Shown piece by piece: positions 9,603 to 24,613 of a stretch of 49,019 bases of DNA (position 1 is the first letter of the stretch; every line of letters starts with the position of its first letter). The notes beneath the pieces were generated by a model. It worked only from the letters and a program-made list of their open reading frames with translations. It was not told the origin of the DNA and did no database searches. A program made the position numbers and the translations under genes. This DNA is from Eubacteriales bacterium (lineage in GTDB: Bacteria; Bacillota; Clostridia; Oscillospirales; Acutalibacteraceae): positions 1 through 49,019 of the forward strand of contig JAQXWS010000045.1 in assembly GCA_029225565.1 (NCBI GenBank). The letters run 5' to 3'.

Positions 9603-11021
9603 TTATCCAATTTTGTTGGCATCGGAAGACTGCAATTTTGCATGCATTTTTTCCAGTTCCTTTTTGGAAAACTTATAACCGAAAAAGAGAATTACAAAAA
9701 GAGCAATCAAAATAATTGCAGGCACCAATGTGGCGATGCCATAAAGCTTTTCTATAACCTCGGCAGGCTGATTGGAAAGCTTGCCATCATATCCGATTAT
9801 GCCAAGAATAGCGGGAACGCCTGCGCCTGCGGCAGTCTGTCCTAATTTTCTTACAAAGGAGTAAAATGAGTAGGCTGTGCTTTCCTCTCTTCTGCCCGAA
9901 AGCAGCTCGTGGTAATCAATAACATCCATAACCATTGCCCATATTTCAAGTACAAGGAAGGTCTGTCCTGCGCCGGAAAGGAATGTCATCACAAGGAAAA
10001 GATAGGGATTTGCAGAAAGTGCGGTAAATCCAAACAAATACATAACAATGTTGACTACTGCCGCAAAAGCAATACCTGCGCTGCAAATTTCTTTTTTGCC
10101 GAATTTACGCACAAGCTTGCCTATAACAGGCAGAAACATAGCCATGGGAAGATAGGTACAGATTGTTACAATACTGTAAAGCCCCGGCTTTTCGTAAAAA
10201 TTCTTGAACAGATAATTATACACGGTTTGTGTGTACATCTGGAAGCAAATCAAAAGCATGGAAACGCCGCAAAGAGCAATGAACGGCTTGTTCTTCATCA
10301 GCATACGAACACTGCGAAACAGATTATAATTACTTTTTGCCTGATTTGGCGAAACGGTTATTCTTTCCTTAGTCAGCTTAAAATGAACAAAAAATGTTAT
10401 TACTGTAACTAATGAAAGACCGCCTACTGCGATGCTAAGCTTGTTTGCGTCAAGAACCTTTGCCGTATTGCCAACACCTGCAACCGTTGAATACACAAAC
10501 AGCGGCAAAAGAATCTGTGCCGGCAGACCACCTACGCCGGCGCCCACGGACCTCCACATAGAAAGCGAAGAACGCTCAATCTCGTCATCGGTAATAACAG
10601 AGGCAAGGGAGCCGTAAGGTATATTAACGCCTGTGTACATCATGCCGTAAATAATGTATGTAACATAGGCATAAATCAAGTATTGCTTTTCGCTGAGGCC
10701 GGGTATCTTGAAAAACATAAAAAAGGCGGCAATTGCAAGAGGAACGGACATACCGAGAATATACGGACGGAATCTACCGTATTTTGTCGGTCGTCGCGAA
10801 TCCAAAAACGCGCCCCACATCGGGTCGTTGACTGCATCCCAGATTCTTGCAACCAACATCAAAACAGTAATTGACGCTGTAGCAATACCCAAAATATCTG
10901 TATAAAACATTGTTAAGAAGGAATTGACTAATGAAAAGGTCAAAATCCCTCCCATATCGCCCAAAGCATAGCCTATCTTGTCTATTGCTTTTATTCCGTG
11001 TGTTTGTCGGTTATCGTTCAT
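9603..11021 (-). CDS. GPH-family sugar:cation symporter
   Basis: A 472-residue, 12-helix transporter of the glycoside-pentoside-hexuronide:cation symporter family (MelB/YicJ-like). The N-terminus KIGYALGDMGGILTFSLVN, the cation-site region ARIWDAVNDPMWGAFLDSR and the GRFRPYIL loop are family hallmarks. It probably imports a di- or oligosaccharide with Na+ or H+. It starts 19 bp after the GH31 gene and is the last member of the esterase-GH31-symporter operon, which suggests that it brings in the GH31 substrate. It has no fused IIA regulatory domain, unlike LacS. Confidence 0.9.
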   Translation of the reverse strand: MNDNRQTHGIKAIDKIGYALGDMGGILTFSLVNSFLTMFYTDILGIATASITVLMLVARIWDAVNDPMWGAFLDSRRPTKYGRFRPYILGMSVPLAIAAFFMFFKIPGLSEKQYLIYAYVTYIIYGMMYTGVNIPYGSLASVITDDEIERSSLSMWRSVGAGVGGLPAQILLPLFVYSTVAGVGNTAKVLDANKLSIAVGGLSLVTVITFFVHFKLTKERITVSPNQAKSNYNLFRSVRMLMKNKPFIALCGVSMLLICFQMYTQTVYNYLFKNFYEKPGLYSIVTICTYLPMAMFLPVIGKLVRKFGKKEICSAGIAFAAVVNIVMYLFGFTALSANPYLFLVMTFLSGAGQTFLVLEIWAMVMDVIDYHELLSGRREESTAYSFYSFVRKLGQTAAGAGVPAILGIIGYDGKLSNQPAEVIEKLYGIATLVPAIILIALFVILFFGYKFSKKELEKMHAKLQSSDANKIG

Positions 11022-11040
11022 AATAACTATCCCTCTCTGT

Positions 11041-13320
11041 TTATTCTTCTGTTACTATTAGTTTTCTGGAATCTTGGAGACACAGACGGATTGTGGGAGA
11101 AAATGGGCTGTTACCTGTGTTTTTGTATGTTACAGCAACCGTATCTTCGTCACAAATCACAGTAAAGCCGAGCTTTACGCAATCGTTGTTTATATAGCCG
11201 TAAGTTAAGCCGTCATCAGTAAAAAAGTCGCTGACAAAGGTGCCGTTCTCAATTGGATAAACGGTAAAGACGGTATTTTCGTCATCCGTGGGAATTACGC
11301 AGCCGGCTTTTACAATCAAAGGCATTTCTTCTGTTAAAGGTATTGGAACCCGAATTATTTGACCGCCCTCATATAACCTTGAACCAAAATACCAGGAGTC
11401 ATTTTTTGGCAGATAAACCTCCGCATATTCCCTGCCCTCGTCAAAAACAAACGGAACAAGAATATCCCTGCCCACCATCATACTGTCATTTTGGGAATAA
11501 AGCTCCTGGTCGTCATAGTACAACAGCGGTGGCGCATTCATCGGTATTTCATTTTCCACGGCATTGTAAGCGCAGTTGTAAAGATAGGGCAAAAGTCTTT
11601 TTCTTTGCTCAAAAAGTTTTTTTACGGCAGGCATAATGTCAGGATAACTCCATGGCATTGTTGCAGAGCCGTCCTCATTCCAGCTGTGAATAGTGAATCT
11701 GGGTTCAAAAATCCCATGCTGCAGCCATCGTATAAGCAATTCTCTTGATGGCATATCCCCGTGAAATCCGCCCAAATCGTGGCCGTAAAAATGCAATCCT
11801 GACAGCGACATCGTAAGCCCGATGTTATGACAATATCTCAAATCCTTAAAGCAGGTTCTGTTATCTCCCGACCAGGTTTGTGCCAAGCGACGAAGAGCAA
11901 TATTCCCGCTGCGAGTAGAAAGGAACGGTCTTAAATCGGGTCTGTTACTAACCTGAGCCCGGTATGATGAGGCAACCATCAAGTAGGTCAGGTTGGGTCT
12001 TATTCTGCTTGCCGGGACAGGATTATTTCCAAAGCCCTGCGCCACAGCATCACAGTCGCGAATATCAAATTCGTTATTATCATTCCAGGTGGATAAGATA
12101 CCTAAATCCAGCAAGGTTTCCTTCACCTTCGATTTCCAATAATCAAAAGCGTCGGGATTTGTAAAATCCAAATAACTGCCGAGTCCGTCCCAAAACTCTG
12201 TCAAAAACGGAGTGCCGTCGGCATTCTTAATGAAATAACCTTTATTAGCAAGTTCGTCATAAAGAGGATGACTGTCAAGGAACGCCGGCTTAATATTGGG
12301 AATAATCTGAATGTCCCTGTTGGCAAATTTTTTTACAAAGGCTTTTGGGTCAGCAAATTTTTCGTAATTCCAGTTGAAGACATATCTTCTGCTGCCGATG
12401 GAGGTGTACCCTGAAGAAAGATAAAATCCATTGCAGGGCAAGTCATATTCCGTCAGTTTGTCAAGAAATCCGTCCATCTGTGCTTCCGAGTCGGGAGCGT
12501 CGGTATATGCCATGGTGCTTGCACAATAATTAAAGCTCCATTTAGGTGGGAACGCCTGCTTGCCGCACATTCTTGAAAACTGCTGCAAAACAGAGAGCTT
12601 TGTTCCAAAAAAAACATAATAAACAAGGCAATTATCCTCTGTTTTGAAATACTTGTACGCAGGATAATAGTTGTTAATTTCCTTACCCAAATCAATGTAC
12701 GATGTATCGGAGGTATCGTAAAAAATACCGTAACAGCCAACACTGTTTTCGCAAATATAAAAAGGAATATGCTTGTAGAGAGGGTCGCTGCTTTCGGCGT
12801 CATAACCCATACTATCTGCTGTTTCTATACGGAAGGCTCTGCCGGATTTGTTAAGCGAGCCGCCCTTGTCACCCATGCCGAATATATATTCGCCCTTTTC
12901 TCTTGTAATATAATGGTAGCTCTCTTTTCCGAACTCGCCCTCAAAATTGTATGCTAACGGAGAACGGTCAGAAAACAAAAGCCTGCCGTCCTTGTAATAT
13001 TTGAGAATAAAGTTGTATTTGTCAAGCTCCACATCCACACCGCAAGGTAAGGCAAAATGCTCCGTATCATCGCTGAAGCTTATGTCAGGTGAGCACAGTC
13101 CAAATCCGTCGGTGCTAAGTCGGCTCCTGCCCGTTGTCAAAAACTCGTTATTGGGGTTAATGCAGAAGGTGGGCAGCATTCCCGCCTCATCATTATACAC
13201 CGCAACACGCATACAGCTATCGCTGACAAAATCAATGCGCACATAGCTGTCACCGCTGGTGTATGTACGGCAGGTGTCAGTATATTTTGAAAGAACAAAT
13301 TTATGCTTGAATTTTGGCAT
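11041..13320 (-). CDS. Glycoside hydrolase family 31 (alpha-glucosidase/alpha-xylosidase type)
   Basis: A 759-residue GH31 retaining glycosidase. The nucleophile lies in WNDNNEF at residues 412-418 (Asp414), corresponding to the W-x-D-x-NE signature, and the acid/base is Asp486 in QTWSGDN. An N-terminal beta-sandwich precedes the barrel and beta-rich domains follow it. No signal peptide is present, so it acts in the cytoplasm. The ATG overlaps the esterase stop as TAATG, indicating translational coupling. Activity could be alpha-glucosidase, alpha-xylosidase or a related one; the sequence alone does not decide. An imported, possibly acetylated oligosaccharide substrate is inferred from the neighbours. 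Confidence 0.92.
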   Translation of the reverse strand: MPKFKHKFVLSKYTDTCRTYTSGDSYVRIDFVSDSCMRVAVYNDEAGMLPTFCINPNNEFLTTGRSRLSTDGFGLCSPDISFSDDTEHFALPCGVDVELDKYNFILKYYKDGRLLFSDRSPLAYNFEGEFGKESYHYITREKGEYIFGMGDKGGSLNKSGRAFRIETADSMGYDAESSDPLYKHIPFYICENSVGCYGIFYDTSDTSYIDLGKEINNYYPAYKYFKTEDNCLVYYVFFGTKLSVLQQFSRMCGKQAFPPKWSFNYCASTMAYTDAPDSEAQMDGFLDKLTEYDLPCNGFYLSSGYTSIGSRRYVFNWNYEKFADPKAFVKKFANRDIQIIPNIKPAFLDSHPLYDELANKGYFIKNADGTPFLTEFWDGLGSYLDFTNPDAFDYWKSKVKETLLDLGILSTWNDNNEFDIRDCDAVAQGFGNNPVPASRIRPNLTYLMVASSYRAQVSNRPDLRPFLSTRSGNIALRRLAQTWSGDNRTCFKDLRYCHNIGLTMSLSGLHFYGHDLGGFHGDMPSRELLIRWLQHGIFEPRFTIHSWNEDGSATMPWSYPDIMPAVKKLFEQRKRLLPYLYNCAYNAVENEIPMNAPPLLYYDDQELYSQNDSMMVGRDILVPFVFDEGREYAEVYLPKNDSWYFGSRLYEGGQIIRVPIPLTEEMPLIVKAGCVIPTDDENTVFTVYPIENGTFVSDFFTDDGLTYGYINNDCVKLGFTVICDEDTVAVTYKNTGNSPFSPTIRLCLQDSRKLIVTEE

Positions 13321-14657
13321 TACACGGTTTTTCCTTTTCCTGTTAAAGTATATTTAATATTGTCCCCTGTTTTCCATTTTGCGCACGCTGTATTTTCGCA
13401 AAATGCCATGGGCGTTCTGTAATCCGCTGTCCACCGGGGCAGCGAAGAACAGTTTGGGTCTCCGCTTTTTGCAAAAGCGCATATACTATCCGAAATCTGC
13501 CTTGATATATCATAATCAACCTTATCGAACGGACGCCAGTTAAAATCAAGGGTCGAGAACACATACAACAAATCTGCCGCATGCCAGCAGCCCATATCAT
13601 CACCGGGCAAAAATCTGTTGAAGTTGTAAAAATAACACGGGCTCGAATTATGCTTTTTGGCATACTTGCCCCATTTCTTATTAACGCCCTCAAGTACAAT
13701 GGGTATCATATCGGTACAAGTCGAGCCTATGATATAAGGTATATCGGGAATTGTGCTCAATTTGAAGTTACTCCGACTCAAAATCACCCCGTCATATACA
13801 GGAAACGTATATGGCATACTGAATTTGCTGTCCTTACACGCCTTGAGCCAAGCATAGTAAAGGTCCTTGGCATCTGTCTTTTTTAGTTCATCAATAGTTT
13901 GGACTCCGACATTTTTCATTATTCCGTCCCAAAAAGGCGTAATTTTTTCAATACTCAATGGCTTAAGTAAAAATCTTTGGAGTCCCGAACCGCTAAGCAT
14001 AATCGCTCTTTTGATATTACATTTAATGATGGGATTGTTCAAATGTATGTCAACACTCATAGCGCCTGCGCTTTGTCCCATAAGAGTGATATTATCGGGG
14101 TCTCCACCGAATGCGGATATATTATGTACTACCCACTGAATAGCCGTTGTTTGGTCATAAAGGCCGAAATTCGCCATAACACCTTTGTCATTTTTTAAAT
14201 CCTTATGGGCGCAAAAGCCGTAAGGACCCAGGCGATAATTCATGGCAACCGTAATAATTCCCTTTTCGGCAAAGCGTTCGCCTTTAATATGTCCTTCGTC
14301 GGTGCTGCCTCCGGTAAAGCTTCCGCCGTGGATAAACACCAAAACCGGACAATTCTCGGCATTTTTAGGTGCCCAAATATTGAGAAAGAAGCAATCCTCG
14401 CTGTATGTAAAGCATAGCCCTTTGCGAAATTCCTTGTGGTAAAACGGATTCACCCTTGAATCGTCCTCGAAGGCACGATGCTGGTAGCAGCAAGACTTGT
14501 ACTGGGTCGCATCATACACACCGTACCATGATTTTTCCTCTACAGGATATTCGTATCGTCCTGCACGGGCGTAACGAATGCCCCTAAATTCAACGCAGCT
14601 GTCTGTTTCCAGGCCTTGTATTATACCGAGAGGTGTTTGTTTTGTAATATACCCCAT
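13320..14657 (-). CDS. Type B carboxylesterase
   Basis: A 445-residue alpha/beta-hydrolase of the carboxylesterase B family. The nucleophile elbow GQSAGAMS places the catalytic serine at Ser196; the oxyanion HGGSF starts at residue 110; EDCFFLNIWAP is another family signature; the likely catalytic His lies in the CWHAADLLYVF segment. At 445 residues it is shorter than the usual ~500-550. There is no signal peptide. As the first gene of an operon with a GH31 and a GPH symporter, a role in deacylating imported sugars is plausible but inferred. A TATAAT -10 is seen upstream at 14714-14719 without a convincing -35. Confidence 0.88.
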   Translation of the reverse strand: MGYITKQTPLGIIQGLETDSCVEFRGIRYARAGRYEYPVEEKSWYGVYDATQYKSCCYQHRAFEDDSRVNPFYHKEFRKGLCFTYSEDCFFLNIWAPKNAENCPVLVFIHGGSFTGGSTDEGHIKGERFAEKGIITVAMNYRLGPYGFCAHKDLKNDKGVMANFGLYDQTTAIQWVVHNISAFGGDPDNITLMGQSAGAMSVDIHLNNPIIKCNIKRAIMLSGSGLQRFLLKPLSIEKITPFWDGIMKNVGVQTIDELKKTDAKDLYYAWLKACKDSKFSMPYTFPVYDGVILSRSNFKLSTIPDIPYIIGSTCTDMIPIVLEGVNKKWGKYAKKHNSSPCYFYNFNRFLPGDDMGCWHAADLLYVFSTLDFNWRPFDKVDYDISRQISDSICAFAKSGDPNCSSLPRWTADYRTPMAFCENTACAKWKTGDNIKYTLTGKGKTV

Positions 14658-14817
14658 AATTTGCCAATGACCCCTTGCAAAATAATTGATAATTCATACC
14701 GTTATTCTACCAAATTATACAGATAATATCAATCATATTTTGTATATAACAGGTTCAGGGAACTAACGACTCATCGGAGCCATAGCCTTTGTTGACACTT
14801 ATATATTCCTACATAAC

Positions 14818-14850
14818 AAAAAGGCAAGCCGAATACAGCTTGCCTTTTTT
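14818..14850 (+). terminator. Rho-independent terminator with no gene directly upstream
   Basis: AAAAAGGCAAGC (14818-14829) pairs perfectly with GCTTGCCTTTTT (14838-14849) around an 8-nt loop. It could work in both directions. No plus-strand gene precedes it. Confidence 0.7.
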
Positions 14851-14903
14851 GGCTACAAACGCATTTTTTGATACGGGTTGCAAAAGTTGCATTTTTGAGT
14901 TTG

Positions 14904-14929
14904 GGTTGCATTTCAATGCAACCTTTTTT
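14904..14929 (+). terminator. Second terminator before the controller gene
   Basis: GGTTGCAT (14904-14911), a TTCA loop and ATGCAACC (14916-14923) are followed by six T. It would block transcription entering the C-box region from the left. Confidence 0.75.
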
Positions 14930-14942
14930 GTTTATGCACCAT

Positions 14943-14970
14943 ACACTTATTGTGTGTAGACTTATTGTGT
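14943..14970 (+). promoter_or_regulatory. Tandem C-box operator of the controller-endonuclease operon
   Basis: Two copies of an interrupted palindrome, ACAC-TTATT-GTGT (14943-14955) and AGAC-TTATT-GTGT (14958-14970), are spaced 15 bp centre to centre. They sit about 45 bp before the ATG of an XRE-type controller gene, and a TAAAAT/TATATG-like -10 follows at 14980-14990. This spacing and symmetry match the C-box arrangement known for controller proteins of type II systems, in which two dimers first activate and then repress transcription. Confidence 0.7.
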
Positions 14971-15014
14971 TCTAACGATTAAAATATATGTAGTACTTTG
15001 TCGAGGTGCAGCCA

Positions 15015-15224
15015 ATGGATATTATAAAAGTTTTTGGAAGCAATGTGCGTAAATATCGCACACAAAAGCAAATATCTCAAGAAAAGTTTGCAGAGCTTTG
15101 TGGATTACACAGGACGTATATTAGTGATATTGAATGTTTTCGCCGGAGTATTTCGCTGGATAATATTCAAAAAATTGCAGACGCACTTGAGGTTGAAACT
15201 TACAAATTGTTTGTGGAGGAATGA
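15015..15224 (+). CDS. XRE-family HTH controller (C) protein of a restriction-modification system
   Basis: A 69-residue protein that is almost entirely a lambda-repressor-type helix-turn-helix: SQEKFAELCGLHRTYISDIE gives helices 2-3 and RSISLDNIQKIADALEVE the last helices. The size, lack of an effector domain and position immediately before an endonuclease gene match controller proteins that time endonuclease expression after methylation. An in-frame GTG lies at 15006, but the ATG at 15015 is correctly spaced from the GAGGTG ribosome binding site at 15003-15008. Its stop overlaps the endonuclease start, and two C-boxes lie upstream. Confidence 0.85.
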   Translation: MDIIKVFGSNVRKYRTQKQISQEKFAELCGLHRTYISDIECFRRSISLDNIQKIADALEVETYKLFVEE

Positions 15225-15823
15225 TTATGACAAAAACAGAGTTATTTTTACAATTAGCCCAACCGGATAAAAACGGTGTCAGTCGTTGGGTTTCCACCAC
15301 TGAATTTGTAGGTGAATATGCCGATCTTAAATTTGGTAATGGAGCATCTTGGGCGCGCAAAGAATCTACTTTAGCAAAGAAATACAAAATTGAATTTGAC
15401 AAAACTATTACATCTGGAAATGGTATTGATAGAATTCGTTTGGCAGGATTTAATGACGGAGATTATTCTCAACATATTCGCGCAGATATTAAGCGTGAAA
15501 TATCTAGTCGTCGCTGTGTAGTTTTAGGAACCTCAAAACCAGAAGTAGATCACAAAAATGGCATGAAAAACGAAGGCCGCGTTATGCGCAACGAGGATCA
15601 GCAACTTTCAGATTTTCAGCCTTTGAGTAAAGCGGCTAACGACGCAAAGCGTCAATATTGCAAAGAGTGCCGTAGAACTGGAATAAGATATGATGCTAAG
15701 AAACTAGGTTATCCTATGTCTTATTACGCAGGGGGACCAACTCACAATATGGAAGAAGATGCTTGTGTGGGTTGTTATTGGTATGATCCGTTAGAATTCA
15801 AAAGACATCTTAAACAGAAATAA
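15221..15823 (+). CDS. Type II restriction endonuclease, HNH family
   Basis: A 200-residue protein with a central HNH nuclease motif: CVVLGTSKPEVDHKNG supplies the His of the beta-beta-alpha-metal fold (His111), and DFQPLSKAANDAKRQ supplies the later Asn/Lys. Four cysteines in two CxxC pairs (147/150 and 182/185) probably bind structural zinc. The residue 1-90 region is likely the DNA-recognition part. It is translationally coupled to the controller gene (ATGATTATG; the second ATG at 15227 is an alternative start) and convergent with two methyltransferase genes. HNH enzymes with two methyltransferases, such as HphI and MboII, recognise asymmetric sites; that specificity class is inferred here. 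Confidence 0.82.
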   Translation: MIMTKTELFLQLAQPDKNGVSRWVSTTEFVGEYADLKFGNGASWARKESTLAKKYKIEFDKTITSGNGIDRIRLAGFNDGDYSQHIRADIKREISSRRCVVLGTSKPEVDHKNGMKNEGRVMRNEDQQLSDFQPLSKAANDAKRQYCKECRRTGIRYDAKKLGYPMSYYAGGPTHNMEEDACVGCYWYDPLEFKRHLKQK

Positions 15824-15827
15824 AGCG

Positions 15828-15861
15828 AAAGGTGAAGTAGGAAATCCTACTTCACCTTTTT
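15828..15861. terminator. Bidirectional terminator between endonuclease and methyltransferase
   Basis: A near-perfect 14-bp stem (15828-15841 with 15846-15859) with a short loop is flanked by A-rich and T-rich tracts. It overlaps the stop codon of the minus-strand methyltransferase. Confidence 0.85.
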
Positions 15862-16632
15862 GAATATAAAGATGTATTCATGGTCAAATACGTAGAAATC
15901 GCTTGCTAATGCTCTGTATCTCCAGATAGCAGCTTGATTTGCCTTTCCGCGAGTGCGATCAAAGTTTTTAACAAGGATAGCTTTCATCATAAAGCCTCTT
16001 TCGAGGAACAAGTTCATACAATGAAATCCAAGTGGTATCAGCTGGCTATTTGCATACTTATCGCCAATGACAACAGCACAGTAGCGATTTTTTTCTAACA
16101 CCTTAGTCGTGTTATCAATTACCTCGCCAAAAGAATTGAGAAACTCCTCAAGCGTTTTGCTGTTAGATAAATCTCGCTTGTCTTCGGAAAATTTAATGAT
16201 ATCCCAATAAGGCGGATGCATAATTACGAATTGCACATTTTTAATTCCGTAATAATCAACCATCTTATTTGTGTCTATTGTTTTGCTGTCTGCCACTAGG
16301 ATATTGGTAGAACACTTTGGGTTGTGTTCTAATTTGATTCTTTCGCGAACTTCTTCAGCTACCGGCTTCTGAAGCTCTATGCCAATAGAATTACGTCCCA
16401 TTCTTTGCGCTTCAATAAGTGAAGTGCCACTTCCCATAAAGGGGTCTAATATCCAATCACCTTTCTTAGTATAGCGGCTGAATAATTGACGAGGAACCTG
16501 AGGAATAAAGTTACCATGATAACTTGCATTATGTATGCCGGAATTTTCTCTATGGAAGAACCAAAATGAATTGGTAAGGATATCTGTATATTCTTTCCAC
16601 TTTTTTGTGTCAATATCATTATACTTCGGCAT
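15847..16632 (-). CDS. DNA methyltransferase (N4-cytosine or N6-adenine class)
   Basis: A 261-residue SAM-dependent amino-methyltransferase. The SAM motif is DPFMGSGTSLIEAQRMGR at residues 63-80; the catalytic tetrapeptide is HPPY at 139-142, where DPPY, NPPY or SPPY is usual. The segment just before motif I (VPRQLFSRYTKKGDWILDPF) is typical of motif X in methylases of this group. Its ATG overlaps the stop of the cytosine-C5 methyltransferase as TAATG, so both are coupled. It should protect one strand or target base of the endonuclease site. Base specificity (N4C versus N6A) cannot be decided from sequence reading. Confidence 0.88.
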   Translation of the reverse strand: MPKYNDIDTKKWKEYTDILTNSFWFFHRENSGIHNASYHGNFIPQVPRQLFSRYTKKGDWILDPFMGSGTSLIEAQRMGRNSIGIELQKPVAEEVRERIKLEHNPKCSTNILVADSKTIDTNKMVDYYGIKNVQFVIMHPPYWDIIKFSEDKRDLSNSKTLEEFLNSFGEVIDNTTKVLEKNRYCAVVIGDKYANSQLIPLGFHCMNLFLERGFMMKAILVKNFDRTRGKANQAAIWRYRALASDFYVFDHEYIFIFKKVK

Positions 16633-17900
16633 TATTTATCTTCCTCCAGCTGATCCAGTCCCTTCATAACAGCAATACCAATTGCCTTTCCCAACAAGGC
16701 AGGAACAGCGTTTCCGATTTGAACTAGTTGCCACTTTTTAGAACCTTGGAAAATAAAATCGTCAGGGAAAGACTGGAGTGATGCCAATTCTCTTGGCGTA
16801 AGTACACGAGGTAATTTTGGATGGATATTAACTCCACCATGATTTTCCTTTACGGTGCAAGAAGGTTTATCCCAAGGAGATTTCTTCCACGCATCAGAAT
16901 AATTGCCATATAAGCTTTGACCTTCAGGAACTGCAGCGATTTGCTCCATCATTTTCTCGGAGTGGCGTGTGAAAATGTGATTGATTTGCTTGTTTTCAGG
17001 AATGGACATAAAACGCTTTATTCCTTCACCTAAAGTAACATAGTTTTCCGGAGAATAAATAGGCTTGGGATGATAGTTTTTCAAACCGTGTCTGTTGCCA
17101 ATAAAGATTACTCTTTTTCTAATCTGCGGTACGCCGTAATCTGCGCTATTAAGAACTGTGACATTAATATCATATCCAGCCTCTTTATAGTCGTTAATTA
17201 TTTTTGCTTCAACTTTGCCGTCGAGCATAGATCTAAGACCCTCGACATTCTCCATAACAACATAGTCAGGCTGAACACGTTTTACAATCTCAAGCATTTC
17301 AAGGTAAAGACTATTTCTCGGGTCTGTCACAACTCGGTGACCTGCCATACTGAATCCTTGGCAAGGGAAGCCTCCAACAATCAAATGCACGTGCTTATCT
17401 GCAACGGAATCATATAGTTCCTGCTTAACCGCTTCTTCTCTGATATCTCTTGTTTGAACATTTTCATTGAAACCTTTTTGCTCAACGAAATTGTATTTGT
17501 ATGTAGCAACGGCTTCTGGCATTATTTCTACTGATGCGACAGGCGTAAAGCCAGCCATTGTCAAACCACAGCTAAGACCACCAGCACCCGAGAACAAATC
17601 AATAAAGTTGAATCCGTTACGATAGTTAACATTAGACCATCCGTCATATACCCATTTGTCAGTAATGTCAATCCAATTGACTTCGTCTGCGGTCTGATCT
17701 TCAACAATTGCTTCGTTAAAAATATTATCCTTTTCGGGATCTAAATCTGAGATTAACCACTTATTGTAGTTTTCTTTTGTAATACGATAGCAGTTTCCTA
17801 TTTTATCTGCCTTTAATTTTCCGGCAGCAATATGTCTACGTATGGTCTTTTGGCTTTGACCACTCATTTGCGCCGCTTCGGCAATCGAATAAAATTCCAT
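16632..17900 (-). CDS. DNA cytosine-C5 methyltransferase with N-terminal HTH domain
   Basis: A 422-residue C5-cytosine methyltransferase with motif I FIDLFSGAGGLSCGL (from residue 99), catalytic Cys180 in GGFPCQGFS, ENV at 217-219, the QIRKRVIFIG motif VIII, and IGNAVP (motif X). The first ~50 residues, SIAEAAQMSGQSQKTIRRHI followed by YRITKENYNKWL, form a MerR/excisionase-like DNA-binding domain. Such N-terminal domains can repress the methylase promoter in other systems (SsoII, EcoRII). It leads the methylase operon from a strong promoter with an AGGAGG site. Length and motif set indicate an intact enzyme. Confidence 0.93.
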   Translation of the reverse strand: MEFYSIAEAAQMSGQSQKTIRRHIAAGKLKADKIGNCYRITKENYNKWLISDLDPEKDNIFNEAIVEDQTADEVNWIDITDKWVYDGWSNVNYRNGFNFIDLFSGAGGLSCGLTMAGFTPVASVEIMPEAVATYKYNFVEQKGFNENVQTRDIREEAVKQELYDSVADKHVHLIVGGFPCQGFSMAGHRVVTDPRNSLYLEMLEIVKRVQPDYVVMENVEGLRSMLDGKVEAKIINDYKEAGYDINVTVLNSADYGVPQIRKRVIFIGNRHGLKNYHPKPIYSPENYVTLGEGIKRFMSIPENKQINHIFTRHSEKMMEQIAAVPEGQSLYGNYSDAWKKSPWDKPSCTVKENHGGVNIHPKLPRVLTPRELASLQSFPDDFIFQGSKKWQLVQIGNAVPALLGKAIGIAVMKGLDQLEEDK

Positions 17901-17929
17901 ACAAAATCCTCCTGAACAACTACGTGTCC

Positions 17930-17958
17930 ATTATACATGTTTTTTGTCCAAAAGTCAA
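17930..17958 (-). promoter_or_regulatory. Promoter of the methyltransferase operon, with a direct repeat
   Basis: On the minus strand TTGACT (17953-17958), a 17-bp spacer and TATAAT (17930-17935). The hexamer TGGACA occurs twice (plus-strand TGTCCA at 17926-17931 and 17945-17950), once inside the spacer and once overlapping the -10, where a repressor could act. Confidence 0.75.
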
Positions 17959-18053
17959 TGCTTTTATAAAAATCAGGATGTTAACACGCAATGAAACTAA
18001 TCTTTTGTACTTGAACGGCAAAAGCCTTGTGCCTCAAAGCTTTTAGAGCATAG

Positions 18054-18102
18054 AAAAAGAACGAAAGTTGCAATACTAATGGTATCATAACTTTCGTTCT
18101 TT
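18054..18102 (-). terminator. Terminator of the tRNA-Leu gene
   Basis: A perfect 14-bp stem (18089-18102 with 18056-18069) around a 19-nt loop starts two bases after the CCA end of the tRNA and ends in a T-rich tract on the minus strand. Confidence 0.8.
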
Positions 18103-18104
18103 AG

Positions 18105-18189
18105 TGGTGCACCTGACAGGAATCGAACCTGCACATGTCTCCATACTAGATCCTAAGTCTAGCGCGTCTGCCAGTTCCGCCACAGGTGC
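18105..18189 (-). tRNA. tRNA-Leu, anticodon TAG
   Basis: The minus-strand sequence folds as a class II tRNA of 85 nt including an encoded CCA: acceptor arms GCACCTG and CAGGTGC, discriminator A, D-arm GGCGGAACTGGCAGACGC, anticodon stem CTAGA/TCTAG with loop CTTAGGA (anticodon TAG), a short variable arm and the T-loop TTCGATT. It would read CUN leucine codons. Confidence 0.93.
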
Positions 18190-18243
18190 ATTGCTCAAAT
18201 ATAATAGCACAAAGAAATTGCAAATGCAAGAACTTTTTGCGGT

Positions 18244-18858
18244 TTACCGGCCTTTATCAAATGAGCGACAAACGAACTTTACGCCCATATCATCAGCTAT
18301 TTTTTTTGACTTTGCGATATTCTCGGCGCCGATAACATCCACAACGGACAGGCGCACATCATCGCAGTACTTGCCACACTCTTTTGCAAAATCCAGCATG
18401 GCGGGATAAGCCCTGCCGGGATAAATATTGCGAGTAATCTTGTCATAAGCGTCAGAGTCCGGCTCGTTTAGAGAGATGGACACGCTGTCAAAAGCCAAGC
18501 CTATCTCCTTGGCGGTGGGACGCTGGTTGATAAGGTCGGACAGTCCGTTGGTGTTGAGCCTCAGCTTTATTTGCGGATTCACAGTTCGAAGGTACCGCGC
18601 AGCAGCCAACAAAACGTCCAATCTGCAGGTGGGCTCGCCATATCCACAGAACACGGCGTTGTCCACATTGCTAAAGCCCCATTGGTCTATAGCCGCCTTG
18701 ACTTCCTCCAAGGTGGGCTCGCTGCCGTGATACCACATTTCCTTTGCCTCACCTACGGTATCGGTCTGGTTGCGTATGCAAAAGGCACAGTTGCACGGAC
18801 ACTGATTGGTAATATTAAAATAAACTCCGCCCTCCAGGGTATAAATAATATCTGCCAT
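18244..18858 (-). CDS. Radical SAM protein, TatD-linked family
   Basis: A ~204-residue radical SAM protein. The 4Fe-4S motif is CPCNCAFC (C-x3-C-x2-C) in NITNQCPCNCAFCIRNQ; CGYGEPT is the SAM-binding glycine motif and LRLNTNG the next conserved strand. This short form, opening with IIYTLEGGVYFNITNQCPC, resembles the TatD-linked radical SAM family of Firmicutes, whose substrate is unknown. The frame extends to an ATG at 18879, but the AGGAG site overlaps that region, so the start at 18858 is preferred. No tatD lies next to it; it is divergent from a MocR regulator. Confidence 0.85.
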   Translation of the reverse strand: MADIIYTLEGGVYFNITNQCPCNCAFCIRNQTDTVGEAKEMWYHGSEPTLEEVKAAIDQWGFSNVDNAVFCGYGEPTCRLDVLLAAARYLRTVNPQIKLRLNTNGLSDLINQRPTAKEIGLAFDSVSISLNEPDSDAYDKITRNIYPGRAYPAMLDFAKECGKYCDDVRLSVVDVIGAENIAKSKKIADDMGVKFVCRSFDKGR

Positions 18859-18885
18859 AATATACACATCTCCTTGCAATACAAT

Positions 18886-18913
18886 AGTATATAGTATATA
18901 ATAATTCTGTCAA
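18886..18913 (-). promoter_or_regulatory. Promoter for the radical SAM gene
   Basis: On the minus strand TTGACA (18908-18913), a 16-bp spacer and TATACT (18886-18891). It lies in the 75-100 bp divergent spacer shared with the MocR gene, so that regulator could control it. Confidence 0.65.
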
Positions 18914-18954
18914 TAGATAAATAAACAAATTTCATAATATTTTAGGGTACAGAT

Positions 18955-20214
18955 ATGAAAAAATACATAGAAATATACGAATACTACCGTCGGCTGATAA
19001 CAAACGGACAAATGAAATACGGAGACAAAATGCCGTCAATACGCAGCGCAACCACAATATTTTCGGTCAGCAAGACCACTATTGAGAACGCATACTTTGA
19101 GCTACAAGCAGACGGATACATAATATCCAGCCCAAAAAGCGGCTACTATGTGTCGAACTACACACCGATTGAAGCAACGCAGAGCAATGCGGACCCTGAC
19201 GCCCAACACATACTGTACGACCTAAAAAGCGGCGGCGCGGACAAAAACAGCTTTGACATATCTCTGTGGCAAAGATACATAAAAAGCGCATTACGCCAAC
19301 AGGACAGATTGCTGTCGTACAGCGATAATCAGGGCGAAGCAGATTTGCGAGAGGCGCTGGCAAAATATATCAGAGAAAAAAGGAATGTTACAGCCTCCCC
19401 CGACAGAATAGTGGTTGGCGCAGGCGTGCAGAACCTGCTGGGGATTCTGTGTTCCCTGATAGATGACAGGGATACCGTATCCTTTCCGGACAAAAGCTTT
19501 GTGCAGGGAATCAGCGTGTTTAAGGACTACGGCTTTACGGTAAAAACCAGGGACAAAAACGCAAAAATAATATATGTTTCACCGTCCCACATGACCTCCT
19601 ACGGCGATGTAATGAAAACAAAGAGAAGGCTGGAATTGGTAAAGCACAGCGAAATCAATCACAGTCTGGTAATCGAAGATGATTACGACAACGACTTTTT
19701 GTATCAATCAAAGCCTACACCCTCCCTGTTCGCACTGTCAGGGGGAGGAAATGTGGTATATATGGGCTCATTTTCCAATGTGTTGATACCGGGTATTCGT
19801 ATCAGCTTTATGGTACTGACAAAGGAACTGGCAGAAAAGTACAAAAAAAATATAGACAAATATGCTCAGGCCGCCAGCAAAACAGAGCAAATTGCGTTGT
19901 GCCAATACATAAGAGACGGTCATATCAATACCCAAACGAGAAAAATAAGAAGACTATATACAGCAAAGACAAAGCAATTCTACGACGAAATTAACAGACA
20001 AATGAAAAATGTAAATTGCAAAATAAGTGACAACGGTCTGCAAGTAAAAATAGAAGTTCCCCCATTCGATACAACAAGGCTGACGGATAACGGTATAGCT
20101 GTGAATATAAAAGAAGTAACCCAAGATTACGCAAAGCTGGTGATTGTTCCCTCGGCTATTGACAGCAGTGATATTCCGCATATAGTATCCCTGCTCAAGA
20201 AGTCAATAGAATAG
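18955..20214 (+). CDS. MocR-type regulator (GntR HTH fused to an aminotransferase-like domain), PLP lysine position altered
   Basis: A 419-residue fusion. Residues 1-70 form a winged HTH of the GntR family (GDKMPSIRSATTIFSVSKTT and DGYIISSPKSGYYV). Residues 100-419 form a fold-type I aminotransferase-like domain with VGAGVQNLLGIL, SPSHMTSYGDVM and IEDDYDNDFLY. MocR proteins sense PLP or PLP adducts and activate or repress neighbouring genes. In GabR and PdxR the PLP lysine sits in the (T/S)FSK motif; here the motif reads GSFSNVLIPG, with asparagine at residue 275. The domain is otherwise intact and slightly short. It is divergent from the radical SAM gene. Confidence 0.88.
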   Translation: MKKYIEIYEYYRRLITNGQMKYGDKMPSIRSATTIFSVSKTTIENAYFELQADGYIISSPKSGYYVSNYTPIEATQSNADPDAQHILYDLKSGGADKNSFDISLWQRYIKSALRQQDRLLSYSDNQGEADLREALAKYIREKRNVTASPDRIVVGAGVQNLLGILCSLIDDRDTVSFPDKSFVQGISVFKDYGFTVKTRDKNAKIIYVSPSHMTSYGDVMKTKRRLELVKHSEINHSLVIEDDYDNDFLYQSKPTPSLFALSGGGNVVYMGSFSNVLIPGIRISFMVLTKELAEKYKKNIDKYAQAASKTEQIALCQYIRDGHINTQTRKIRRLYTAKTKQFYDEINRQMKNVNCKISDNGLQVKIEVPPFDTTRLTDNGIAVNIKEVTQDYAKLVIVPSAIDSSDIPHIVSLLKKSIE

Positions 20215-20228
20215 GAAACATTTGTTCT

Positions 20229-20252
20229 GATAGTCCGTTTTTCAGGACTATC
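20229..20252. other. Hairpin after the MocR gene
   Basis: GATAGTCC (20229-20236) pairs perfectly with GGACTATC (20245-20252) around an 8-nt loop. It lacks a following T run, so it may be a weak transcript end or a structured leader of the small membrane protein gene. Confidence 0.45.
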
Positions 20253-20327
20253 ATCGTCGATGGTATTGTAATTAATCCTCGTTAAATATACAATGAGATT
20301 GTAACGAAAACACAAGGAGGATTCATT

Positions 20328-20612
20328 ATGAACACAAAGAATTTACTAAAAGGAATTATACTGACAATCGTATCACTGGCAGGCGGATTTTTTGCATTGA
20401 GCGTACCCTTTCGCATATTCTCCACCCTAAGCGGCGACGGAGTAAGAATTCTGTTTGTTACGGAAATTGCGGTTTACTTTGCGGTAGGTATGATATTTCT
20501 TGTTGTCAAGGATAATAAGGAGCAAAAGAAAAGAAAGCAAAAGCAGCAGCAGTTCGCCAGGCAAGAAAAGATAAACAGAGTGAGGGACGAGTGGTATAAT
20601 ATCGCCGCCTGA
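20328..20612 (+). CDS. Small membrane protein of unknown function
   Basis: A 94-residue protein with two predicted membrane helices (about residues 8-28 and 40-60, GIILTIVSLAGGFFALSV and VTEIAVYFAVGMIFLVV), followed by a strongly basic, glutamine-rich cytoplasmic tail (residues 62-90) that could form a helix. I do not recognise the family. The ATG follows a perfect AAGGAGG. A TTGTAA/TACAAT promoter-like pair lies upstream. It is downstream of the MocR gene with a 113-bp gap containing a hairpin, so probably transcribed separately. Function unknown. Confidence 0.6.
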   Translation: MNTKNLLKGIILTIVSLAGGFFALSVPFRIFSTLSGDGVRILFVTEIAVYFAVGMIFLVVKDNKEQKKRKQKQQQFARQEKINRVRDEWYNIAA

Positions 20613-20748
20613 GTAGAGCATACGCTCTCCTCAGACTGTCGATAAAGTGGGTTGAACCACGCCAAATAATATATATAATATGTAACCGATTTCTGCCTCT
20701 CTTTGTAAAGAAAAAAGGGGGTGCGATTTATCGCACTCGGGAAATTGT

Positions 20749-20790
20749 AAAAGTGGCTTAGACATCTAATGATGAATCTAAGCCACTTTT
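20749..20790 (-). terminator. 14-bp hairpin, terminator-like
   Basis: AAAAGTGGCTTAGA (20749-20762) pairs perfectly with TCTAAGCCACTTTT (20777-20790). Flanking A/T runs allow function in either direction. Confidence 0.6.
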
Positions 20791-20910
20791 GGCGTTTTTC
20801 GTTTTTTGCTCAGTCAAGGTACCATCGTACATCTTCCCTCGCAAGAAAACGAAATTCAATCCCATTTCTCGCAGTCTGTCAGCGTGTAGAAATTTATAAT
20901 TTGACTTTTT
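20758..20910 (-). pseudogene. Possible 3' remnant of an unidentified gene
   Basis: A minus-strand frame is open for about 50 codons and ends in TAA at 20758-20760, inside a 14-bp hairpin that would make a natural terminator for it. The product contains HADRLREMGLNFVFL and TEQKTKNAKSGLDSS, which look protein-like rather than random. The only internal ATG (20863-20865) has no clear ribosome binding site, and the frame is blocked upstream. I read it as a degraded 3' end, perhaps from a lost mobile gene, with low confidence. Confidence 0.3.
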
Positions 20911-20920
20911 CTACACGCTG

Positions 20921-20946
20921 AGGAGAGCGAATGCTCTCCTTTTTTG
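20921..20946 (+). terminator. Terminator just before the beta-mannosidase promoter
   Basis: AGGAGAGC (20921-20928) with GCTCTCCT (20933-20940) and a T run to 20945. It isolates the beta-mannosidase promoter from upstream transcription. Confidence 0.75.
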
Positions 20947-20975
20947 TTGACATACAGAAAGCATTATTATATTAT
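20947..20975 (+). promoter_or_regulatory. Promoter for the beta-mannosidase gene
   Basis: TTGACA (20947-20952), a 17-bp spacer and TATTAT (20970-20975), followed by AGGAGAG and the ATG at 21004. A TATAAT at 20975-20980 is an alternative but badly spaced -10. Confidence 0.65.
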
Positions 20976-21003
20976 ATAATTACAACAAAATAGGAGAGAA
21001 GCT

Positions 21004-23541
21004 ATGAAAATCACACTTAACGGAAAATGGATGTTCAAAGCCACGGACGACACAAAGTGGATGAATGCAACCGTACCGGGCTGCAATTTTTTGGACCTGA
21101 TGGACAACGGAATTATCGAAGACCCGTTTCTCTACACCTACGAAAAGGATGTACAATGGGTAGGAAAAAAGGACTGGGAATACAAACGCAGCTTTACTGT
21201 TGACGAAAATCTGCTTGAGGCAGATGATATTTTGCTGAATGCCGATATGCTGGACACAATATGCGATGTCACAGTTAATGGTAAAAAAGTGTTCAGCGGT
21301 GACAACTGCTTTGTGGCATACAGTGTGTCAATAAAGGATTATATTGTACCCGGCGAAAATGAGATTCATATCCTCTTTCACTCGCCGGTAAATTATGTTA
21401 GCGCCAAGTACAAGGAATGTATAACCCCTATCAACAGCAACGGACAGAACGGAATAGTGCATATTCGCAAGCCCCAGTGTCACTTCGGCTGGGACTGGGG
21501 ACCGGTACTGCCTGCCAGCGGTATCACAAAGGATATAGAAATAGAGTTTGTTGACAAAGGCAGGATTGATTACCTTGGTGTAACACAAAAGCTTGAGGGC
21601 GATACTGCCACAATTACCGCAAATGTGGATATAACCGCATACACGGATACAGAATGCAACATCACGGTTATCTCCCCCAACGGCGAAAAGATTACAAAGG
21701 ACGGTGCATCTGCCACCTTTACAATCGAAAATCCTGAGTTATGGTGGACAAAAGAATTGTCCGGCAGCGACAATCAGCCGCTGTACACCGTTACTGCCCA
21801 ACTAAAAAGCGGTAACAAGATGCTGGACACCGCAGAAAAGAAAATCGGAATCAGGACTATTGAGCTTAATAGAGAGCGTGACGAATACGGCCGCAACTTC
21901 CAATTCATACTCAACGGAGTGCCCATATTCATTAAAGGAGCAAACTATATTCCCCCTGACAGCTTTATCACCCGATTTGGCGAAAAGGAATTGAATTATC
22001 TGCTGGACGCAGTACAATTCAGCAATATGAATATGGTCAGAGTGTGGGGCGGCGGCTACTACGAGAGCGACAGTTTCTATGCCGAGTGTGACAAGCGGGG
22101 CATACTGGTATGGCAGGACTTTATGTTTGCGTGTCAGGCATATCCGTTCTTTAATGATGACTTCCTTGATAATGTAAAGAGGGAGGTAGAATACAATGTA
22201 AAGCGTCTGAGTCACCACCCGTCCTTGGCTGTATGGTGCGGCAACAACGAGATTGAGGATATGCACATGGCCTGGGTCCACATGACAAAATATGTTGACT
22301 GGACAGAAACCTTCTTTCACAACATTCTGGGTGAGGAGATTAGGAAGTACGACAATGCAACCCCATACACACCGGGCTCACCCATCGGTGTCAGCCACAA
22401 CAAGGGCGTTGGTGCAGACAATGTTGGCGACACCCACCTGTGGGGCGTGTGGCACGGTCTGCAGCCGATGAATTATTACAGAAAGAGAATGACTCGATTC
22501 TGCAGTGAATTCGGCTTTGAGAGCCTGCCGGACATTAAGTCAATAGAAAAATTTGCAGGCAAAGGAGAACACTCCCTTAACGACAACATATTCCTGGCAC
22601 ACCAAAAATGCACAGGCGGTAATGACAAGATGGTATATTACATAGCTACCCGCTTTCATTTGCCAAAGGAATTTAAGGACTATGTATATCTGTCACAGGT
22701 AACTCAACTGGAATGTATTGCAGATGCTACCGAGCACTGGCGCAGGAACAAGGGCAGATGCAACGGCTCAATGTACTGGCAGTTCAATGACTGCTGGGGC
22801 GTATGCTCGTGGTCCGGCATCGACTACTACGGCAACTACAAGGCGCTCCAATACGGCGCAAGGCATTTTAACGAGCCGCTGTCGTTATCCATCGAGGATA
22901 ACGAAAACCAAATTAACATCTACGCTCTCAACGATTTGAGAGAGGCTAAGGATATTACCTGCCGATACGAAATATTTGATTTTTCCACCGGTGTAATAAA
23001 GACAGAGGAAAAACAGCTTAACATCGGCTCCGTATCAAATCAGTTGGTATTCTCCCTTGACGCAAAGGAGTTGGCAAAGAAATACAACAAGGCCACAACA
23101 GGCGTTGCTGCAAAGCTGATTGCCGACGGCAAAATTGTTCAGCAAAAAACGATACTGCAGGATAAGGAAAAGAATTTGTCCCTACCTAAAGCAAAGCTAA
23201 AAACAAAAATCGAAGTTAACGGACACCGTCTTACTCTCGCTATAACCAGCGACAAATTTGCAAGACTGGTAAATGTGGAGAGCAGTATATCCTCAGCTCC
23301 TTTCAGCGACAACTTTTTTGATATTCTGCCCGGCGAAACAAAGGAGATTACAATAACCGACAGCAGTATATCCGGCAGAGAATTGGCAGAGAGCATAAAT
23401 GTGTACAGCCTGTGCAACATCAATTTTGATAAAAACAAGCTGCACTCATTGGCAAAGCAAATAAAGGTGTATATGTCCCCTACCAACATTGCAAACGCAG
23501 TCCACCACGGCAAGCTGTCAACTGATGTAAAATTTGACTGA
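21004..23541 (+). CDS. Beta-mannosidase, glycoside hydrolase family 2
   Basis: An 845-residue GH2 enzyme. The jelly-roll N-terminal domain contains FGWDWGP (residues 161-167), a signature of beta-mannosidases. The TIM barrel carries the acid/base Glu416 in VWCGNNE and the nucleophile Glu502 in FCSEFGFES. No signal peptide is present, so it cleaves beta-mannosides in the cytoplasm, probably from imported manno-oligosaccharides. The ATG follows an AGGAGAG site, and the gene has its own promoter and hairpin terminator. Together with the GH31 operon it points to plant glycan use. Confidence 0.93.
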   Translation: MKITLNGKWMFKATDDTKWMNATVPGCNFLDLMDNGIIEDPFLYTYEKDVQWVGKKDWEYKRSFTVDENLLEADDILLNADMLDTICDVTVNGKKVFSGDNCFVAYSVSIKDYIVPGENEIHILFHSPVNYVSAKYKECITPINSNGQNGIVHIRKPQCHFGWDWGPVLPASGITKDIEIEFVDKGRIDYLGVTQKLEGDTATITANVDITAYTDTECNITVISPNGEKITKDGASATFTIENPELWWTKELSGSDNQPLYTVTAQLKSGNKMLDTAEKKIGIRTIELNRERDEYGRNFQFILNGVPIFIKGANYIPPDSFITRFGEKELNYLLDAVQFSNMNMVRVWGGGYYESDSFYAECDKRGILVWQDFMFACQAYPFFNDDFLDNVKREVEYNVKRLSHHPSLAVWCGNNEIEDMHMAWVHMTKYVDWTETFFHNILGEEIRKYDNATPYTPGSPIGVSHNKGVGADNVGDTHLWGVWHGLQPMNYYRKRMTRFCSEFGFESLPDIKSIEKFAGKGEHSLNDNIFLAHQKCTGGNDKMVYYIATRFHLPKEFKDYVYLSQVTQLECIADATEHWRRNKGRCNGSMYWQFNDCWGVCSWSGIDYYGNYKALQYGARHFNEPLSLSIEDNENQINIYALNDLREAKDITCRYEIFDFSTGVIKTEEKQLNIGSVSNQLVFSLDAKELAKKYNKATTGVAAKLIADGKIVQQKTILQDKEKNLSLPKAKLKTKIEVNGHRLTLAITSDKFARLVNVESSISSAPFSDNFFDILPGETKEITITDSSISGRELAESINVYSLCNINFDKNKLHSLAKQIKVYMSPTNIANAVHHGKLSTDVKFD

Positions 23542-23552
23542 TAAACACAACA

Positions 23553-23585
23553 AATCCTCCCTATGCTCAATGCGCAGGGAGGATT
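23553..23585 (+). terminator. Hairpin at the end of the beta-mannosidase gene
   Basis: AATCCTCCCT (23553-23562) pairs with AGGGAGGATT (23576-23585). The following CTTGTTAATT tract is only moderately T-rich. Confidence 0.6.
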
Positions 23586-23649
23586 CTTGTTAATTTATGC
23601 CTATGATTCAGGCTTATAAATCACCATCTTTTTTCTGCCAATGTGACAT

Positions 23650-23680
23650 AAAAAGGACAGAAGACAAAAGCCCTCTGTCC
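23650..23680 (-). terminator. Terminator of the CoA-transferase/acyltransferase operon
   Basis: On the minus strand GGACAGA (23674-23680) pairs with TCTGTCC (23655-23661) and is followed by five T. Confidence 0.7.
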
Positions 23681-23692
23681 AAAAATCAATAA

Positions 23693-24613
23693 TTACTTCC
23701 AGGTTTGGATAATCTCCGGGTTTGCAAATATCTCGTCAAGCTTTGCAAAAAACGGAATTGTGTCGCCAAAATCAAGCGCCTTGTGGTCAATACACAAAGA
23801 AATGGGCATTACCAAGCCGACTTCTACCTTGTCATTGCCGTTTTCGTCCTGAACAACAACGGGCTTCTTTTGTGTGGCATTGATACAAAATGCACAAACC
23901 TGCGGCGGAATAATCTCCAGCAATGTACAAGCGCCTCTGAAGTTGCGATACGCAGAACCGATATTGGAAATAGTGGTAGTGCCCTGCTCAATATCGTGCT
24001 TTGTGAGACGGTCGGTTGTAGGTATGGAGTAATATTTTTTCTTTGCATTACCGCTAAGGGTCTTAACCTTATGCTTGCCTGTTTTTGAGCCAACCAGTCG
24101 ATTGATTGTCTGGGCAATCTTGCCTTTTTTGAGGCCCCGGAGAGTATTGTCAAGGGACACCTCAAACATTACCTCGTTCATATCGCTGTTACTCGCTCTG
24201 CGTACAGAATCATTGATGGACTCGGTCATCTCTGTGAGGGACTTGTTGCCCATATCGTGCATATTAATAGTCATCATTTCGCCATTTGGCAGCATCATAG
24301 GCATGGACACATCTACATGGTCGTATGTAGTAAGACAGCCTCTAACCAGCCTTCTGTTGAACTCCAGGTGTGCGTTCATATTGGGTGCGGCCTTAAGACC
24401 CTCACAAATAACCTTGAGCATAACTGTGTTTATGGTGATTTTTTTGCTTTTATCGGTGCAGCCCTCATTGAGCTTTTTGCACTCTGCCATGAACTTGGTT
24501 ACTTCAGGCTCGTAAACAAGGCCTGCGTGTGGGATTGTCTCCCAGCTTTCTGCAGTCATATTGGATACAATTTTTCTTGCAATGCCAAAATGCTTTCTAT
24601 CGGTTACCGCCAT
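23693..24613 (-). CDS. Lipoyl-less 2-oxoacid dehydrogenase E2-like acyltransferase
   Basis: A 306-residue protein consisting only of the CoA-dependent acyltransferase (E2 catalytic) fold. The catalytic motif DHKALDFGD near residue 280 corresponds to DHRxxDG of E2 proteins, with the His and Asp kept but the Gly displaced by Phe-Gly. TTISNIGS matches the conserved TxSNxG strand. There is no lipoyl domain and no E1-binding domain, so it is not a standard pyruvate dehydrogenase component. It lies 26 bp downstream of a CoA-transferase gene. Acyl transfer from a CoA thioester to an unknown small acceptor, as in chloramphenicol acetyltransferase, is a reasonable but unproven idea. Confidence 0.78.
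   Translation of the reverse strand: MAVTDRKHFGIARKIVSNMTAESWETIPHAGLVYEPEVTKFMAECKKLNEGCTDKSKKITINTVMLKVICEGLKAAPNMNAHLEFNRRLVRGCLTTYDHVDVSMPMMLPNGEMMTINMHDMGNKSLTEMTESINDSVRRASNSDMNEVMFEVSLDNTLRGLKKGKIAQTINRLVGSKTGKHKVKTLSGNAKKKYYSIPTTDRLTKHDIEQGTTTISNIGSAYRNFRGACTLLEIIPPQVCAFCINATQKKPVVVQDENGNDKVEVGLVMPISLCIDHKALDFGDTIPFFAKLDEIFANPEIIQTWK

Follow-up and report, generated by a model that had tools for sequence, protein, structure and literature searches.

Whether two methyltransferases of unlike chemistry beside one HNH endonuclease mark the two strands of an asymmetric site, or guard a single palindrome independently, is the question raised by a compact restriction-modification cassette (14942-17960; located from open reading frames (ORFs), Pfam and PADLOC matches and a repeat scan) in the 49,019-nucleotide stretch analysed here (the window). 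The window is contig 45 (JAQXWS010000045.1) of the draft genome of an Eubacteriales gut bacterium of the Acutalibacteraceae (GCA_029225565.1; 1.76 Mb, 85 contigs, 91% complete). HphI and MnlI, in which an HNH endonuclease is combined with cytosine-C5 and adenine methylation, recognise asymmetric sites and employ one methylase per strand, and an original prediction made from the letters of the window had assigned the cassette an HphI-like, type IIS specificity. We consider it likely instead that the cassette works like the NlaIII/IceA1 systems, with CATG guarded independently by its C5 methylase and by its amino-methylase, such that the two enzymes look redundant rather than strand-specific.

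The endonuclease matches one Pfam family only, ICEA (PF05315), at E 3.1e-69 (233 bits, against a curated cut-off of 24) and over its full length (residues 4-196, profile positions 1-200 of 218); no sequence match was returned from NCBIfam, PADLOC or the PDB. Glu108, Asp110, His111, Asn140 and Lys143 are invariant in an alignment of 43 sequences, as are Cys147, Cys150, Cys182 and Cys185, which bears out the four-cysteine zinc-type site first proposed for this protein, and both the HNH residues and the cysteines are also kept in a 10-sequence alignment that includes six members from Campylobacterota. Endonucleases from that phylum are 42-58% identical to the window's (17 matches of 195 amino acids or more) and have the catalytic residues in common with it. 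Characterised members of the family are CATG enzymes: CATG is given as the cutting site of NlaIII (PMC6449724), IceA1 is reported to be 52% identical to NlaIII (PMC2749054) and, in Helicobacter pylori, to be its functional isoschizomer (PMC2816704), and M.HpyAI is described as placing N6-methyladenine (m6A) on CATG (PMC3936762). By analogy with NlaIII, the window endonuclease probably cuts CATG.

The methylases beside it match N6_N4_Mtase (6.6e-24; motif I DPFMGSGTS, motif IV HPPY) and DNA_methylase (5.2e-70), consistent with the two different chemistries originally assigned to them. The HPPY residues of the amino-methylase are invariant in 32 relatives, and the C5 enzyme, which carries in addition an HTH_17 domain (3.5e-9), retains the catalytic and cofactor motifs DLFSGAGG, GFPCQGFS, ENV and QIGNAVP. 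In most relatives the position of this C5 enzyme is occupied by a D12 adenine methylase; no D12 methylase was found in the cassette by Pfam, nor in the window's genome at its 91% completeness.

To place this arrangement among its relatives, we draw on 78 loci, 76 from a scan of one genome per species and two from a viral scan, of which 77 were scored (L078, in which our script called no endonuclease ORF, was left out). D12 occurs in 50 of these, C5 in six (L015, L016, L020, L070, L074 and L082) and both in none; three clostridial loci (L015, L016 and L020) have the window's pair of C5 and amino-methylase. D12 and amino-methylase stand together at 42 close loci, including L073 with a broken amino-methylase and L018 with one in two ORFs, and at two more with a split endonuclease (L032, L077). 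At six loci the amino-methylase was found without D12 or C5; three of these are complete (L038, L039, L041), and the others are truncated, L047 and L071 at contig ends and L022 where the fetched sequence stops. At four close loci (L030 and L075, both cut by contig ends; L063, with D12 and amino-methylase on another contig; and L065) and at eleven distant ones no methylase of the three kinds was seen; at ten of the latter the endonuclease is adjoined by a match to the amino-methylase model that falls below threshold (22-47 bits), and the two of these that were scanned (L083, L085) represent a different kind of N6_N4 methylase. Within the window's genus the endonuclease occurs in 5 of 60 genomes, its own included, and the other four carriers have D12 and amino-methylase (D12 of L008 by search, the rest by translation). 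At the level of the order the ICEA family was found in 2 of 295 genomes, again counting the window's, and in Campylobacterota in 35 of 298. Thirty fetched Campylobacterota loci (2.4-3.7 kb) gave D12 matches in 26, amino-methylase matches in 12 (two of them 53-residue pieces) and C5 matches in none. The amino-methylase therefore belongs to classical IceA-type neighbourhoods, and a Campylobacter jejuni locus is described in which an iceA1/nlaIII homologue and an hpyIM orthologue are accompanied by another methylase-like gene (PMC4687069). A search of the literature found no description of specificity for this amino-methylase family.

Relatives with a single methylase bear on the question posed; those with the amino-methylase alone, or with D12 in its absence, have endonucleases 74-79% identical to the window's. 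At L038, L039 and L041 the endonuclease and amino-methylase lie directly between housekeeping genes, in genomes where D12 had no match and C5 had distant matches only (32-37%). L045 has the endonuclease and D12, its genome giving neither an amino-methylase nor a C5 match, while L033 and L036 have D12 without amino-methylase, their genomes giving only weak generic amino-methyltransferase matches and distant C5s. The C5 enzyme is the lone methylase at L070 (a named species record, endonuclease 60% identical to the window's), L074 and L082, and at L073, where the D12 and endonuclease frames are open, the amino-methylase is a broken remnant that has lost the HPPY-motif stretch. It thus seems that any one of the three methylases suffices, and because of the single-methylase relatives, the exchange between D12 and C5 and the decay at L073 we favour interchangeable methylases acting on one palindrome over an asymmetric site.

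An asymmetric site, at which the two strands would be marked separately by the C5 enzyme and the amino-methylase in the way of HphI or MnlI, would suit an HNH endonuclease with two unlike methyltransferases, and most relatives do keep two. HpyAV provides a further parallel, as an HNH endonuclease with C5 and adenine methylation in one system, its site, CCTTC, being reported to carry 5-methylcytosine (m5C) and m6A on opposite strands (PMC3936762). Nevertheless, unlike these enzymes of asymmetric sites, the window endonuclease falls in ICEA and has close relatives for which a single methylase was found, and D12 has been exchanged for C5 beside a retained amino-methylase; we accordingly regard the HphI-like specificity as unlikely. 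Two unlike methylases would then be no proof of an asymmetric site. We advance more tentatively, as a little short of an even chance, the specific proposal that three unrelated families, D12, C5 and the compact HPPY amino-methylase, can stand in for one another in protecting a single palindrome from a single endonuclease, such that CATG would be marked with different chemistry in closely related systems, the window's CATG carrying m5C together with either m6A or N4-methylcytosine.

Support for a C5 enzyme at CATG comes from Ureaplasma parvum OMC-P162, where the annotated C5 methylase UPV229 is reported to block cutting of CATG both by UpaP162 and by NlaIII (PMC6191088). Several observations nevertheless weigh against independent protection of CATG by the two window enzymes. 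The authors of that report favour m6A as the UPV229 product, their long reads being stated to show no m5C; the UpaP162 endonuclease, moreover, is reported to cut blunt and to have no homology to known ones (PMC6191088), and UPV229 is compared here by description only. Divergent D12-like and amino-methyltransferase genes lie elsewhere in the L070 genome, L079 has only D12 within the locus but a 33-residue amino-methylase piece at a contig edge, and the single-methylase genomes are nearly all drafts, in which a methylase may be missed. At L065 (1593-2246) an open ICEA endonuclease lies between housekeeping genes in a draft genome in which none of the three methylases was found. The wide retention of a second methylase itself suggests a role beyond bare redundancy. 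Finally, the observed/expected ratio of CATG is uninformative (0.44 in the window's genome, 0.24-0.42 in four other carriers and 0.26-0.61 in four non-carriers). In most of nine genomes (the window's and eight of the same genus, samples of 18-315 kb) CTAG, GATC, GGCC, ACGT and CATG are all strongly depleted, GATC reaching 0.11 in the window's genome.

A division of labour, in which maintenance of CATG falls to the C5 enzyme and the amino-methylase, like the adenine methylase DpnA, deals specifically with DNA that arrives single-stranded or hemimethylated, appears improbable. DpnII differs from the window cassette in that its endonuclease is of another family and both its methylases are adenine-specific. 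The two systems are nonetheless alike in bringing together two methylases, and DpnII is described as serving one palindromic site with DpnM, acting on double-stranded DNA, and DpnA, acting on single-stranded DNA (PMC3573125). Retention of the amino-methylase in both D12 and C5 contexts would fit such a role, as would the appearance of DpnA among its weak PDB matches, which cover motif I only. However, the amino-methylase is the sole one found at L038, L039 and L041, which suggests that it protects resident double-stranded DNA. That the amino-methylase has another target altogether, a second endonuclease or a regulatory one, and that C5 alone guards the ICEA enzyme, we consider very doubtful, since three loci hold only the amino-methylase and the ICEA enzyme and the window has no other candidate endonuclease between their genes, even though extra genes often lie between the two in relatives, the amino-methylase stands at L012 with another HNH endonuclease (R12) and no ICEA enzyme, and it occurs alone on viral contigs.

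Under independent protection of CATG, then, unmethylated CATG in foreign DNA would be the target of the HNH endonuclease, and host CATG would be marked by the C5 methylase and, independently, by the amino-methylase, either mark blocking cutting. The place that D12 (an HpyI-type N6-adenine enzyme) has in most relatives would be filled by a C5 methylase that is unrelated to it and bears a helix-turn-helix (HTH), the endonuclease and amino-methylase being retained. On entry into a new host the methylase unit would be expressed immediately, and the controller would accumulate, bind the paired C-boxes and activate its own gene and that of the endonuclease.

The arrangement of the genes (Table 1) accommodates such a scheme. 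The rightward unit consists of the paired C-boxes, the controller gene and the endonuclease gene, the latter two overlapping by 4 bases, and the leftward unit of the C5 gene followed by the amino-methylase gene, with one base common to the C5 stop and the amino-methylase start; the convergent coupled units of the original prediction are thereby upheld. So is its controller, which matches Pfam HTH_3 (5.7e-13) and PADLOC Control_protein (4.4e-23) and for which ATG 15015 is a likelier start than 15006, judging by relatives and an upstream GAGGTG. As in type II systems under C-protein control, a small HTH controller gene overlaps the endonuclease gene and tandem C-box operators lie upstream, and the 15-bp tandem C-box was present upstream of the controller in 12 of 12 loci (the window and 11 loci with a controller above 80 bits); at L016 no controller was seen in the locus scan. 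The C-boxes resemble the form GACTtatAGTC, repeated around a central GT, that is given in PMC3115060, and the Esp1396I oligonucleotides in PMC3758141. A second layer of control is suggested by the N-terminal HTH, which aligns in six of seven C5 enzymes (L082 is without it): M.SsoII is reported to control its own promoter through its HTH (PMC3978073), and the window C5 enzyme may, by analogy, do likewise.

Table 1. Features of the restriction-modification cassette, in coordinates of the window.
Feature	Position	Strand	Basis and remarks
Putative controller operator, two tandem C-boxes (14942-14955 and 14957-14970), 15-bp period	14942..14970	+	Direct repeat
Controller (C) protein gene, HTH_3	15006..15224	+	ORF, Pfam, PADLOC; likely true start ATG 15015
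HNH endonuclease, ICEA/NlaIII family, four-cysteine site	15221..15823	+	Pfam, alignments; likely true start ATG 15227
Terminator-like 15-bp perfect stem-loop between convergent units	15828..15859		Repeat and terminator scan
Compact amino-methyltransferase, N6_N4_Mtase	15847..16632	-	Pfam, alignment
C5 cytosine methyltransferase with N-terminal HTH_17 domain	16632..17900	-	Pfam, alignment
Promoter-like site for methylase unit	17930..17958	-	11/12 consensus matches
Nucleotide homology with L015 copy	14945..17960		blastn

Between the two units the proposed bidirectional terminator is partly substantiated: the perfect stem is there, and the terminator scan lists it on the - strand only, the T run of the + strand having been read by eye. 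Promoter-like sites overall are not significantly over-represented here (16 found against 10.9, s.d. 3.5, expected). The cassette is indeed AT-rich relative to its surroundings, with a GC fraction of 0.384 against 0.439 in the remaining window, and a GC fraction this low occurs in 2.4% of 496 overlapping windows of the same size, which were taken from 20 of the 85 contigs, at most the initial 20 kb of each, and from the remainder of the window. The adjoining tRNA is present as described (tRNA-Leu, 18105-18189) but looks like a bystander, because it has no repeat of 9 bp or more in common with the left edge of the cassette and, of 30 loci fetched within the genus for the neighbouring radical-SAM gene, occurs at the window's own only.

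Comparison by blastn indicates movement. Homology with L015 and with L016 (15224-17960) ends at 17960, the right edge originally given for the island, and with L020 at 17958, and the window flanks (10000-24000) found no match in the stretches fetched for these three loci; this is therefore a 3-kb mobile cassette whose surroundings differ from copy to copy, and no mobility gene belonging to it was seen. In the endonuclease tree a single clade of the window, L015, L016 and L020 is allowed (P value of the approximately unbiased test (p-AU) 0.32) and one of all seven C5-bearing endonucleases is rejected (p-AU 0.0146), with caution called for by long branches such as that of L082; D12-bearing relatives reach 85% endonuclease identity to the window's. 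Between the window and L070, L074 and L082 the endonucleases are 60, 63 and 45% identical and the C5 enzymes 60, 55 and 46%, so that divergence of the C5 genes keeps pace with that of the endonucleases. Against L016, L015 and L020 the endonuclease and both methylases show low non-synonymous divergence (dN) with saturated synonymous divergence (dS). Endonucleases 67-81% identical to the window's also occur in drafts labelled Alphaproteobacteria, Elusimicrobiales, Gastranaerophilales and Bacteroidetes (L043, L081, L046, L029, L057), where they nest among clostridial ones, reflecting either cross-phylum gut transfer or binning errors.

Among known systems, the closest are NlaIII and IceA1-HpyIM, with which the cassette has in common the Pfam endonuclease family over its full length and the catalytic residues, and in Campylobacterota members D12 and often the amino-methylase stand beside the endonuclease. 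In contrast to these, the window's genome is without D12, has instead a C5 enzyme with an HTH, and adds a controller with C-boxes; because the D12 partner is missing the cassette is not filed as an NlaIII/HpyI pair, although it may work like one. It appears to be an instructive variant of a known defence rather than a new kind, unusual in its pair of unrelated methylases. Were the proposed protection of CATG correct, the family would offer a natural experiment both on the ways in which different modifications of one four-base site block a single restriction enzyme and on exchange of methylase genes without killing of the host, as well as a source of CATG-specific C5 and amino-methylase reagents; for viral relatives of the amino-methylase, protection against such systems would be a sensible role. 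Stand-alone relatives of this kind are encoded on viral contigs (L235:4001-4768, 46% identical; L236:203-997, 44%), and the sequence fetched for the 10 viral amino-methylase loci contained no ICEA endonuclease, no D12 and no C5 enzyme of this type. A 34% identical relative in Fusobacterium vincentii (L014:3363-6729) follows genes that resemble, by eye, DpnM, a DpnII-like endonuclease and an Mrr-like nuclease.

Other genes recur beside the endonuclease. In 22 of the 78 loci it adjoins a protein of about 376-430 amino acids when whole (e.g. L018:5602-6732, L029:1089-2225), two scanned members of which have weak EVE matches below the Pfam cut-off (E 0.0003 and 0.004) and, at the C-terminus, a stretch resembling a PD-(D/E)XK nuclease by eye; the one member scanned against PADLOC gave no match. 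This protein is possibly a modification-reading nuclease. The same slot holds proteins with no significant Pfam or PADLOC match at L017 (5609-6457, 282 amino acids) and L026 (5600-6226, 208 amino acids), and a GmrSD_N protein adjoining a HEPN protein at L021 (3202-4949). A second HNH-type endonuclease with a weak ICEA match occurs at L012 (2933-3583; PADLOC REase_II 1.3e-27), where there is no ICEA enzyme, and adjoins the ICEA enzyme at L020 (5625-6284) and L074 (980-1603).

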